NCBI GenBank assembly: GCA_017415185.1
Contig: JAFQHZ010000021.1
Location: 1 to 57,543 of the forward strand
DNA from: Candidatus Gastranaerophilales bacterium
GTDB lineage: Bacteria > Cyanobacteriota > Vampirovibrionia > Gastranaerophilales > Gastranaerophilaceae
Length of the DNA: 57,543 nt
Direction: 5' to 3'
The translations under genes were made by a program, and so were the position numbers. Below, piece after piece: positions 1-46,426 of the stretch. Under the pieces are notes generated by a model. The model made no database searches, was not told where the DNA came from, and saw only the letters and a list, made by a program, of their open reading frames with translations. Position 1 is the stretch's first letter. Every line of letters begins with the position of its first letter.

Positions 1-80
1 ATTGTTGCTATGATACCGAGGATTGTCATAACTAGTATTGCTTCTGCCATGGTGAAGGCTTTATTGAATGCATTTTTCAT
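1..80 (-). CDS. Type IV pilin-like prepilin, N-terminal part only (gene runs off the left edge)
   Basis: The first 26 codons are visible, reading leftwards from an ATG at 80. They encode a short basic leader (MKNAFNKA), then FTMAEA, then an unbroken hydrophobic stretch ending at the window edge. This is the class III signal of type IV pilins and pseudopilins: cleavage before Phe(+1), Glu at +5 and a hydrophobic N-terminal helix. Residue -1 is Ala rather than the usual Gly, which prepilin peptidases can tolerate. A good ribosome site (AGGAG) lies 5 nt before the ATG. The protein would be made as an inner-membrane precursor and assembled into a pilus or secretion pseudopilus. It resembles the gene at 15214 in its start and in its distant promoter. 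The rest of the gene cannot be judged from this window. Confidence 0.75.
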   Translation of the reverse strand, partial: MKNAFNKAFTMAEAILVMTILGIIAT

Positions 81-94
81 GATAACTCCTTTTT

Positions 95-232
95 AGGTTC
101 CTGCACAAGGGGTACGGTATCCGTGCTCGTCGCCTGCTCCTCGCAGCCGCCGTCGCACTTCACACACCTTGTGCCTTAGGCTTCGCTTAACAAGTGCGCA
201 CAAGCGCACTAAGTTTCGCTCGCCCAAGGAGC
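95..232 (-). promoter_or_regulatory. GC-rich structured 5' leader of the left-edge pilin-like gene
   Basis: About 140 bases between the (TA)n promoter and the pilin start are strikingly GC-rich for this genome: 40 of the 60 bases in 121-180 are G or C. They can fold. On the minus strand a perfect hairpin AGTGCGC-TTGT-GCGCACT is present, and GCACAAGG near 104-111 can pair with CCTTGTGC near 167-174. The sister gene at 15214 has no such block; its start codon follows the promoter by about 20 bases. It may be an inserted repeat element or a regulatory leader. The reading frame across it has no start signal and looks accidental. Confidence 0.4.
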
Positions 233-259
233 ATTCTAATATATATATATATATTTCAA
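233..259 (-). promoter_or_regulatory. Promoter with (TA)n tract in the spacer, for the left-edge pilin-like gene
   Basis: On the minus strand, TTGAAA (259-254) and TAGAAT (238-233) are separated by 15 bp made only of alternating T and A. The -35 lies in a 35-base block that aligns without gaps to the block upstream of the pilin-like gene at 15214 (27 of 35 bases the same by eye), and both promoters continue with TAGAATGCTCC. A 15-bp spacer is shorter than the usual 16-18, so this copy may be weak or off. Known parallel: TA repeats in the hifA/hifB fimbrial promoters of Haemophilus influenzae. Confidence 0.6.
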
Positions 260-711
260 GTTGATTTTGGGAAATTAGGATGGATGGAGGAGATTTTAGT
301 TTTGTTTTGGGATATGTCACCCTGAACTTGTTTCAGGGTCTTATTCATGTTGATTTCTATAATTAGGGCTAAAGCCCTAGTTCATTTTTTCTTCTTTTGC
401 GCTCAAACGCCGCAATCAAAAGAAGAAAAAATAGAACCAAAAAAGAAGAAAACAACGGGCTTAATGAATTAGCCAATTTTCGAACAGCGCTCAAAATTTA
501 ATTCCCAGACAAAAGATTCAAGAATTTTAACATCTTCAACAATAATCTATTTCATTCTAAGCAACATCTCAAAAGCGTATAAAATTCTTTCAGCTTTTGT
601 CTTTTTGTGGAATTAAATTTTTCGCTTGTTTTGATTTTCTTTTTGATTCCGTTTTTCTTTGCGAGATATATTCTAAACAAGTTTAAAATAACAAATTACA
701 AGCACAAAAGC
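260..711. other. Intergenic DNA with several perfect inverted repeats, no gene seen
   Basis: This gap lies between the pilin promoter and the end of dapL. It holds ACCCTGAA-N5-TTCAGGGT (319-339), AGGGCT-AA-AGCCCT (365-378), and a 15-bp perfect stem TTTTTTCTTCTTTTG / CAAAAGAAGAAAAAA (385-399 with 417-431, 17-base loop). A further AAAAAAGAAGAAAA stretch follows at about 440. The first palindrome resembles widespread small extragenic palindromic elements. No open frame here has a ribosome site or recognisable product. Confidence 0.5.
385..431. repeat. Long inverted repeat (15-bp perfect stem)
   Basis: TTTTTTCTTCTTTTG at 385-399 is the exact complement of CAAAAGAAGAAAAAA at 417-431, with a 17-base loop. 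It is not next to the end of a gene in an orientation that clearly makes it a terminator (dapL ends about 280 bases away), so its role is open. It could be a remnant of a dispersed intergenic repeat. Confidence 0.55.
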
Positions 712-15001: not shown

Positions 15002-15091
15002 GCCCTGGTGGTGGAATCGGTAGACACGTCGGACTTAAAATCCGATGAGGCTAATAACTTCGTGCCAGTTCAAGTCTGGCCCAGGGCACCA
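15002..15091 (+). tRNA. tRNA-Leu (UAA anticodon)
   Basis: Acceptor stem GCCCTGG / CCAGGGC (15002-15008 with 15081-15087), discriminator A and encoded CCA (15089-15091). The anticodon stem-loop TCGGA-CTTAAAA-TCCGA gives anticodon TAA. The T arm GCCAG-TTCAAGT-CTGGC is canonical, and a long variable arm makes it a class II tRNA of 90 bases. It is followed directly by a strong terminator. Confidence 0.96.
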
Positions 15092-15094
15092 TTT

Positions 15095-15118
15095 ACCACT
15101 CCTAAGGAGTGGTTTTTT
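15095..15118 (+). terminator. Terminator of tRNA-Leu
   Basis: ACCACTCCT (15095-15103) pairs with AGGAGTGGT (15105-15113), followed by a T run. The stem starts 3 bases after the tRNA CCA. Confidence 0.85.
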
Positions 15119-15129
15119 ATTGCAAACTT

Positions 15130-15192
15130 TCTAGTCCATCCACCCTAATTTCATTAAAACCCCTTGTAATATATATATATATATATTAGAAT
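15130..15192 (+). promoter_or_regulatory. Promoter with (TA)n tract in the spacer, for the second pilin-like gene
   Basis: TTGTAA (15164-15169), a 17-bp spacer of alternating T and A (15170-15186), then TAGAAT (15187-15192). A conserved upstream block from about 15135 matches the left-edge pilin promoter without gaps over 35 bases. The 17-bp spacing is optimal, against 15 in the other copy, a difference of one TA unit. The ATG follows 21 nt downstream of the -10. Confidence 0.65.
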
Positions 15193-15213
15193 GCTCCGCA
15201 AAGGAGTATAGAA

Positions 15214-15906
15214 ATGAAAAACAAATTTGGGTTTACTTTGGCTGAAATAATGATTGTTTTGACAGTAATCGGAGTATTAAGCGCTGTTTTGTTGCCAGTT
15301 GCAAGAAATGCTATGCCTGACAATAATGTCATGAAGTTTAAAAAAGCATACAATGGACTTGCAACAACAATTAAAGAACTAGCAAATTCAGACTTATATT
15401 TTTTGAATGGCGATTTTGCAATTAAAGCCGATGGAACATATATGACCGATGATGTTTATTTTTGTAATGCATTTTCAGATTTCTTTGCAACGCAAGAAAA
15501 AGTTTGCAAAAGTCGCACTTTAATGATGCCGTTAACAGCTCCAAATGGTGGTAAATTATCATTCGGCGGATTAGTTTTTAGCAATACACAATATGACAGT
15601 CAATGCAAAAGCATGCAAGCAAATAACGAATGGGATAAACTATCATATATTTATACTTCAGATGGAATTTATTACTATTTTCCAATAGCAATGGGCTATG
15701 CTTTTGGCGCCGATATTCGAGCAACACCTTATATCATGACAGACGAAAATGGTTTTAAAGGAGCTTATGGTATGGTATGCTTTGATATTGATGAAATAAA
15801 TGAAGGCGAAGAGCCTTTTGGGGTTGCAGTGCGTGCTGATGGCAAAATCGCCCCTGATTTAAGAGTTAATGAATGGTTTCAAAAATCTATACAGAACAAA
15901 GACTAA
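15214..15906 (+). CDS. Type IV pilin-like / pseudopilin protein
   Basis: 230 residues. It begins MKNKFGFTLAEIMIVLTVIGVLSAVLLPVA: a short basic leader, cleavage site G-FTLAE and a long hydrophobic helix, all standard for class III signal peptides (Glu at +5). The remainder is a soluble head with four Cys (as CNAF, VCKS, QCKS and VCF) that could form disulfides. It would be processed by prepilin peptidase and built into a pilus or type II-like pseudopilus. No pilus assembly genes are next to it, so it may be one of several scattered minor pilins. AAAGGAG precedes the ATG. Transcription is probably from the (TA)n promoter. Confidence 0.82.
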   Translation: MKNKFGFTLAEIMIVLTVIGVLSAVLLPVARNAMPDNNVMKFKKAYNGLATTIKELANSDLYFLNGDFAIKADGTYMTDDVYFCNAFSDFFATQEKVCKSRTLMMPLTAPNGGKLSFGGLVFSNTQYDSQCKSMQANNEWDKLSYIYTSDGIYYYFPIAMGYAFGADIRATPYIMTDENGFKGAYGMVCFDIDEINEGEEPFGVAVRADGKIAPDLRVNEWFQKSIQNKD

Positions 15907-44323: not shown

Positions 44324-46426
44324 TTGATTAAACTTAAAGAATTACTTAAAAATAATGATATAGTTTTAGCTATCGGTTTAGTTACCATTGTTTTAATGAT
44401 GGTGATACCTATCCCTGCGCAACTTTTAGACTTATTATTAACGCTTAATATTTCTCTTTCGGTTTTAATTCTCCTTGTTTGTTTATATACAAAAGAACCC
44501 CTTGAATATTCGAGTTTTCCAACAATTCTCCTTGTTTCAACTCTATTTAGGTTGGGTTTAAACGTTACTTCAACAAGATTAATTCTGCTTGAAGCCGATG
44601 CAGGCTCAGTTATTGAGTCTTTCGGGCAATTCGTAATTGGCGGAAATTATGTTGTTGGTGCAGTAATTTTTGTAATCTTGGTAATCATCAATTTTATGGT
44701 TATCACAGGCGGCGCAGGAAGAGTTGCAGAAGTAAGCGCACGTTTCACATTAGACGCAATGCCCGGTAAGCAACTTTCAATTGATGCAGATTTAAATTCT
44801 GGCTTAATTGACGAAGCAGAAGCAAAAAAAAGAAGAAAAGCCCTTTTAAGAGAAGCGGATTTCTATGGAACAATGGATGGTGCTTCAAAGTTTGTTAAGG
44901 GTGATGCAACAGCAGGGATTATCATTACTGTAATAAATATCATAGGCGGTTTAATTATCGGCATTATTCAAATGAAAATGCAACCAATGGATGCATTATC
45001 AACATACACCATTTTAACCGTGGGCGATGGTCTTGTTTCACAAATTCCTGCTTTAGTTATTTCAACAGCAACAGGTTTAATCATTTCTCGTGCAAGTGGA
45101 TCGGACAATTCTTTATCTGAAGATATTAGACAAGAAATGTTCCAAAATCCAAAAGTGCTTGGCGTAATTAGCGGATTATTATTCTTTATGGGCATAGTTC
45201 CAGGTATGCCAACTGTTCCATTTTTGGCGGTTTCTCTTGCTTCTGGTGGATTGTGCTTTAAAAAATATAAAGACAAAATTGAAGAAGCCCGCCAAGCAGA
45301 AATAGCCCAAAAAGAAGCAAAAAAAGCAGAAAAACTAGGCAAAAAGAAAAAGAAAGCAACAAGAGAAAGTGTGCTTGAGCTTTTGGCGGTTGAAACTCTT
45401 GAAATTGAAATAGGATATAGATTAGTAAGCCTTCTTGATGTTGAAAAAGGCGGAGATTTGCTTGATAGAATTTCTCAAATTAGGCGGCAAACCGCTCTTG
45501 ATTTGGGGATTGTTTTGCCTTCAATTCGTGTAAGGGATAATCTTCAGTTGCCTCCAAACACATATCAAATTAAATTAAAAGGCACAACAATCGAAACAGG
45601 CGAAGTTTATCCAGATAGAAATCTTGCAATGAACTCTATGGGAGGAGAAGACGACCCAAATATTGTTGGAATTTCAGCAATTGAACCTGCTTTTCATTTG
45701 AAAGCAACTTGGATATTAGAAAAAGACAAAGAATATGCTGAATCCGTGGGCTACACCGTTGTTAGCCCATCTGCAGTTGTTTCAACGCATTTAACTGAAA
45801 TTATCAAAAAGAATGCTTCTGAAATCATCACAAGAGCAGATGTTCAACAATTGATTGACAATCTTAAAAAAGAAGTAAATGAAACATACGTCAATGATTT
45901 AATGAAAGAAATCACAACAGCAGATGTTCAACAAGTTATGCAAAACCTTTTAAAAGAAAGGGTTTCAATAAGAGATTTAAAAACCATTCTTGAAACAATG
46001 AGCTTGCAATATAAAATCAACAAAAACTACAACTTCTTAACTGAAAGATGCAGAGAAGCACTAGCAAGAAATATTTGTAAGCAAAATCTTTCAGATACGG
46101 GCGAATTACTTGTAATTACAATGACTCAAGAAGTTGAACAAGAAATTGCAAAGGGAATAAATCCTGATGGCGAAAGCTTGACGCTAAATCCTGATTTTGT
46201 AAAAAGACTCATGGACAGCTTGAATCTCGAATTTGAAAAAGCAATTCAGCAAACAGGAAATCAACCAGTTATTTTATGCTCTTCACCTATTAGGTTGATT
46301 TTTAGGCGCCTATTAGAAAAAAATTATCCACAAATAACAATTATGTCTTATAATGAAGTAACAAACAATGTTAAGGCAAAATCTGTCGGCATAATTAGAG
46401 CCAACTTAAGGACAGCGACAATATAG
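44324..46426 (+). CDS. flhA: Flagellar export protein FlhA
   Basis: 700 residues from a TTG start. Eight membrane spans in the first ~330 with FPTILLVSTLFRLGLNVTSTR and the FHIPEP-type loop region (RFTLDAMPGKQLSIDADLN), then the large cytoplasmic platform. It docks export substrates and couples to proton flow in the type III export gate. It is first of a plus-strand run continuing into a PilZ protein and a two-component system, which are probably co-transcribed. Confidence 0.95.
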   Translation: MIKLKELLKNNDIVLAIGLVTIVLMMVIPIPAQLLDLLLTLNISLSVLILLVCLYTKEPLEYSSFPTILLVSTLFRLGLNVTSTRLILLEADAGSVIESFGQFVIGGNYVVGAVIFVILVIINFMVITGGAGRVAEVSARFTLDAMPGKQLSIDADLNSGLIDEAEAKKRRKALLREADFYGTMDGASKFVKGDATAGIIITVINIIGGLIIGIIQMKMQPMDALSTYTILTVGDGLVSQIPALVISTATGLIISRASGSDNSLSEDIRQEMFQNPKVLGVISGLLFFMGIVPGMPTVPFLAVSLASGGLCFKKYKDKIEEARQAEIAQKEAKKAEKLGKKKKKATRESVLELLAVETLEIEIGYRLVSLLDVEKGGDLLDRISQIRRQTALDLGIVLPSIRVRDNLQLPPNTYQIKLKGTTIETGEVYPDRNLAMNSMGGEDDPNIVGISAIEPAFHLKATWILEKDKEYAESVGYTVVSPSAVVSTHLTEIIKKNASEIITRADVQQLIDNLKKEVNETYVNDLMKEITTADVQQVMQNLLKERVSIRDLKTILETMSLQYKINKNYNFLTERCREALARNICKQNLSDTGELLVITMTQEVEQEIAKGINPDGESLTLNPDFVKRLMDSLNLEFEKAIQQTGNQPVILCSSPIRLIFRRLLEKNYPQITIMSYNEVTNNVKAKSVGIIRANLRTATI

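Follow-up and report, generated by a model that had tools for sequence, protein, structure and literature searches.

A dispersed family of type IV prepilin-like genes with TA-repeat promoter spacers in a gut lineage of Cyanobacteriota

Slippage-driven phase variation is known mostly from host-adapted pathogens, where each mechanism acts at few loci. In the opa genes of Neisseria the repeat lies in the coding region, where slippage shifts the reading frame. N. gonorrhoeae has 11 phase-variable opa genes (PMC11868660). Haemophilus influenzae carries a (TA)9-11 repeat between the -35 and -10 elements of hifA and hifB; changes in its length have been proposed to alter the spacing of these elements and thereby expression (PMC2651432, with reference to van Ham 1993 and Geluk 1998). 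A search of the open-licence literature found no report of phase-variable pilins in bacteria of the Gastranaerophilales type.

The window, by which we mean the whole stretch of 57,543 nucleotides that was analysed, belongs to a 1.87 Mb genome of 43 contigs from a Candidatus Gastranaerophilales bacterium, probably a member of a non-photosynthetic gut lineage. The earlier note on this DNA had described a minus-strand promoter in which TTGAAA and TAGAAT are separated by 15 bp of pure alternating TA, and a version with 17 bp at the gene beginning at 15214. Direct reading finds both promoters, each ahead of a prepilin-like gene. The features concerned are as follows.

1..80, minus strand: 5' part of a MAEA-type prepilin-like gene, starting MKNAFNKAFTMAEAILVMTILGIIAT and cut by the contig end (start at 80, contig end at base 1, about 26 codons visible)
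81..232, minus strand: 152-nt leader with a GC-rich dispersed element between CTCCT and AAAGGAG, from comparison with short leaders
233..259, minus strand: promoter core, with TTGAAA at 259-254, 15 bp of alternating TA at 253-239 and TAGAAT at 238-233, from direct reading, shuffles and about 31 genomic copies
278..292, minus strand: upstream box CTCCTCCATCCATCC, common to many, not all, promoters of the family, from the upstream-flank alignment
15095..15113, plus strand: terminator-like hairpin, preceded by tRNA-Leu (15002-15091) and followed by the prepilin promoter
15164..15192, plus strand: promoter core, with TTGTAA at 15164-15169, a 17-bp TA spacer and TAGAAT at 15187-15192, from direct reading and the family alignment
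15194..15206, plus strand: small inverted repeat CTCC-GCAAA-GGAG, within which lies the Shine-Dalgarno sequence, from the alignment; common in the short leaders of the family
15214..15906, plus strand: prepilin-like gene, 230 aa, from PF07963, TIGR02532 and an AlphaFold2 model

The uninterrupted alternating TA runs are 16 bp (8 units) at the first promoter and 18 bp (9 units) at the second. When the window was shuffled 100 times with its dinucleotides preserved, a 15-bp TA tract never appeared, nor did the promoter pattern. The terminator-like hairpin suggests that the prepilin gene at 15214 forms its own transcription unit. Elsewhere in the window, the flagellar export protein FlhA is encoded at 44324-46426 (above the NCBIfam cut-off), indicating that the lineage is probably flagellated besides having many pilin-like genes, and the right end of the contig (57248-57543) is a tandem array of 3.3 copies of an 89-bp unit with 97% matches, the first half of which is GC-rich.

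The genes behind these promoters are type IV prepilin-like and lie in single orientation; they are not chaperone-usher fimbriae of the hif type. The product of 15214-15906 matches PF07963 (N_methyl) above cut-off (E 2.3e-6) and is one of three family members above the cut-off of TIGR02532, so that the N-terminal cleavage/methylation motif of prepilins is present by both models. The AlphaFold2 model of this protein is confident (pLDDT 85.5) and consists of N-terminal helices and beta strands. A Foldseek search of the PDB gave no match for the modelled pilin, its C-terminal domain included. The proteins of the family are deeply diverged, with a median end branch of 0.56 changes per site in a tree of 64 proteins.

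Several scans show that the two promoters of the earlier note are members of a much larger dispersed family. The sequence TATATATATATTAGAATG occurs 17 times in the genome and not at all in the reversed control. Wider scans, combined with inspection, place the number of copies of TTGNAA-(TA)n-TAGAAT and its close variants at about 31, although those on contigs C41 and C42 may be two halves of one; a subclass, TTGATA-(TA)n-TATA(A/G/T)G, has three copies. Of these, 27 run directly into a prepilin-like gene, and the remainder are cut by contig ends before the gene. The gene is prepilin-like in all 27 cases where it is visible, and among the roughly 31 copies none was seen ahead of a non-prepilin gene. 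Long TA tracts are almost confined to the family: the genome has 30 with a length of 15 bp or more, of which 28 are family members, and the other two, near 33204 on contig C40 and near 161295 on contig C43, do not belong to such a promoter.

The promoter serves two prepilin subfamilies, the second being the MAEA type that includes gene 80-1. A MAEA-type operon copy on contig C29 had no TA promoter within the stretch inspected. Near-identical MAEA-type 5' ends were found at 1-80 and at the ends of contigs C4, C15, C18, C21, C35 and C36; their position at so many contig ends suggests a recently amplified, repeat-rich family whose gene bodies are unassembled, and recombination-based antigenic variation is possible in this subfamily.

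The promoter core is under selection or active homogenisation. In diverged copies the 40-bp upstream flanks are 20-60% identical and the downstream flanks 17-70%, whereas the core is the same throughout, save for differences in tract length, a single interrupted tract and a single TAACAT. Upstream regions and leaders are combined as in a mosaic, an upstream region of the CTTCTAA type being found with three different leaders, and this mixing between copies indicates that recombination or gene conversion probably helped the family to spread. A universal upstream activator site was sought and rejected, the box CTCCTCCATCCACCC being present in many but not all copies. The GC-rich leader element, which contains the hairpin GTGCGC-TTGT-GCGCAC, lies between CTCCT and AAAGGAG in at least six or seven leaders of TA-promoter prepilin genes (81-232 on the minus strand, and contigs C8, C15 at both ends, C36, C41 and C42). 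It is also dispersed in the related genomes G005, G015 and G041 without an adjacent prepilin gene. The leader at 81-232 has a predicted fold of -64.8 kcal/mol (z -4.1), much better than shuffles; an Rfam search for known RNA elements gave tRNA alone.

Beyond this genome the design is rare. A scan of the order (383 genomes) for the pattern CTTGNAATATAT...TATTAGAAT gave 21 occurrences here, nine in SIG27 (G017), which is a member of the same genus placed by NCBI in the Cyanobacteriota, and one stray elsewhere. Among 84,980 species genomes the pattern was found in SIG27, where all nine loci precede prepilin genes, and in the window's own organism; there were also three unrelated strays. With the -35-like and -10-like elements assigned by conservation, a simple repeat stands between them at about 31 loci of this genome and at the nine of SIG27, which makes about 40 prepilin promoters in two species. 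A third species of the genus, G005, emerged from a looser search with a related form: it has four TA tracts, each followed after 38-40 nt by a prepilin gene. No TA tract of 15 bp or longer exists in 23 of the genus's 28 genomes. The same prepilin family reaches up to 45 matches in other species of the genus, and those inspected have other promoters. The confinement of the matches to a few species and to prepilin genes indicates that the TA promoter is lineage-restricted and tied to the prepilin family. An origin in a mobile element or phage was considered and set aside, there being no match among 2.9 million viral contigs. An exact match to the 28-mer CTTGAAATATATATATATATATTAGAAT lies ahead of an open reading frame in an unrelated Firmicute, an Oscillibacter metagenome-assembled genome (L133, 5930-5957), and is probably due to chance. 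In the relatives G003, G008, G020 and G005, many prepilin promoters have individual inverted repeats around the -10 element, some of them common to different species, which looks as though every paralog had an operator to itself.

Tract length varies within the family, and it does so in steps of two bases. The 25 pure TAGAAT copies of this genome have spacers of 13 bp (2 copies), 15 bp (20) and 17 bp (3); in SIG27 the spacers are 13 bp (4) and 15 bp (5); in G005 the tracts measure 16, 16, 18 and 20 bp, all four on prepilin genes. Repeat number differs between close paralogs in all three species. For example, the copies on contigs C35 and C21 are identical over 62 downstream bases and have spacers of 15 and 17 bp, and the related copy on C18 has 13 bp; the 5' coding ends of these three paralogs are near-identical. 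Similarly, the G005 copies on its contigs C5 and C20 have identical 50-nt leaders with tracts of 16 and 18 bp. When spacer length is mapped on a tree of 22 genes, seven changes are needed, and lengths are no more clustered than shuffled labels. Differences that are always multiples of 2 bp are what slippage by whole units predicts, and two-base slippage over evolutionary time is a supported source of them. The paralogs are old and mostly far diverged, and even rare slippage would suffice; the differences are consequently no gauge of the rate of switching. The tracts are short (about 7-9 units), which is a point against a switch by slippage, and the length distribution is narrower than would be expected of a fast contingency family. 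The earlier proposal that slippage changes tract length is supported as to the steps, which are of 2 bp only and separate even paralogs with identical leaders, but sits less well with the dominance of 15 bp.

How spacer length relates to promoter strength was judged from other promoters. The canonical pair TTGACA-N-TATAAT is not enriched in this genome (9 occurrences against 7 in the control), and TTGACA-N17-TATAAT was accordingly rejected as a guide to its spacing; a genus-level expectation was instead drawn from the prepilin promoters of relatives. There, spacings of 17 and 18 bp are over-represented among TTGACA/TATAAT pairs (seven each, about 1.5 expected), and 15 bp is less so (five). This preference in non-TA prepilin promoters makes it plausible that 17 bp is a strong state and 13 bp a weak one. 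In G005, the nearest -10-like hexamer, TATAGT, would lie only 10-14 bp from TTGATA (10, 12 or 14 bp, in an ambiguous register), and the sigma-70 spacing model does not carry over simply to that species. Two further G005 prepilin promoters, which carry CTTGAAACAAGGGAATATATATAATAG or a near version of it, place a -35-like TTG just 12 bp upstream of TATAAT, a hint that the genus has a promoter type that is not standard. For the promoters of the window the sigma-70 model is reasonable, not proven. The rule in the earlier note that 15 bp is poor and 17 bp optimal is not established by these data: 15 bp is the norm among the copies here, and the G005 reading gives 10, 12 or 14 bp.

Just on the probable side, in our judgement, is a reading in which a dispersed family of prepilin promoters has a TA microsatellite as its spacer, slippage changes the spacer stepwise, and spacer length sets expression. 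The core promoter is a module common to many dispersed type IV prepilin-like genes and is retained on paralogs though their other flanks have diverged, with the -35-like TTGNAA and the -10-like TAGAAT flanking the microsatellite. Slipped-strand mispairing would add or remove single TA units to give spacers of 13, 15 or 17 bp, and the length would probably govern the expression strength of each pilin gene. By analogy with hif, the 15 bp of most copies would be weak, 13 bp near off and 17 bp strong, and a cell would express a changing few among its many pilin-like genes. That spacing alters the transcription of the prepilin genes is suggested by the same analogy, and switching of the tracts within populations, that is, phase variation, is plausible. 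We are inclined to doubt, while still entertaining, the stronger proposal of a switchboard of about 30 pilin-like genes in which slippage would randomly set each one off (13 bp), low (15 bp) or high (17 bp).

A rather unlikely alternative, in our estimation, is that the promoters are co-regulated and that their TA tract serves as a fixed functional element with a working length of 15 bp, either recognised by a regulator or acting as an easily melted, supercoiling-sensitive spacer, and the copies with 13 and 17 bp represent drift. The predominance of 15 bp fits this explanation, as does the retention of pure TA in nearly all copies despite the deep divergence of the paralogs. An alternating tract is also a perfect palindrome, and as such a candidate site for a dimeric protein; every (TA)n is palindromic, however, and the symmetry is not independent evidence for a bound regulator. 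The differences in length between close paralogs in all three species, and the failure to find an upstream activator site common to all copies, speak against a fixed element.

We consider it improbable that a promoter-plus-leader cassette spread by duplication and gene conversion with TA length as a neutral passenger, even though the modules on either side of the core have a mosaic make-up, many copies sit at the ends of contigs within near-identical 5' coding sequence, and one promoter serves two prepilin subfamilies. The exact core is kept without flank similarity, in SIG27 too, and this requires either selection or conversion tracts of 26-30 bp; nor does copying alone produce length steps of 2 bp. 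Chance TA-rich spacers in an AT-rich genome, or assembly errors in tract length, are barely credible. This is a metagenome assembly with many copies at contig ends, as an artefact would have it, but the shuffles gave zero and the reversed-pattern controls zero or near zero, which rules out chance TA richness for the family as a whole. Moreover, the design recurs in three separately assembled species, the tracts are much shorter than reads, and two contigs of the public record RGIG1918 (goat caecum; same genome, hence not a second strain) match without a mismatch, one being identical but for an additional base at its end and the other matching along its entire length.

If the reading with slippage and length-dependent expression is correct, a single promoter-spacer repeat shared by about 30 pilin-like paralogs in an uncultured gut commensal would bring slippage-driven phase variation to the Cyanobacteriota, and the 13, 15 and 17 bp spacers at many loci would offer a natural series on spacer length and promoter strength. 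The switchboard, if true, would let non-photosynthetic gut Cyanobacteriota vary their surface combinatorially. Three species would have related versions of it, and to our knowledge it would be the largest hif-like family.

The family can be compared with several described systems. Like the proteins of PF07963 and TIGR02532 in general, both gene types here have a hydrophobic helix after the prepilin motif, which reads FTLAE or FTMAEA; they differ in their amplification, several of the genus's species having dozens of members. With Neisseria opa the family shares many dispersed paralogs of surface proteins, each with a slippage-prone repeat, opa expression being combinatorial, whereas here the repeat is in the promoter, consists of TA units and varies little in length from locus to locus. 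The parallel with hif that the earlier note had drawn is close in promoter anatomy and fails in genetic context. Of the systems compared, hif is the nearest precedent, and an experimental one: the TA repeat lies at the same promoter position between -35-like and -10-like elements, with the same unit and 2-bp steps, ahead of genes for surface fibres. The hif system has a divergent promoter (hifA/hifB), chaperone-usher fimbriae and one or few loci. The divergent chaperone-usher arrangement was not found at the loci studied here, where about 31 one-directional promoters precede type IV prepilin-like genes with N_methyl motifs and mostly have one tract length. The best reading is a hif-like promoter-spacer microsatellite that has been multiplied over a pilin repertoire and may be phase-variable.
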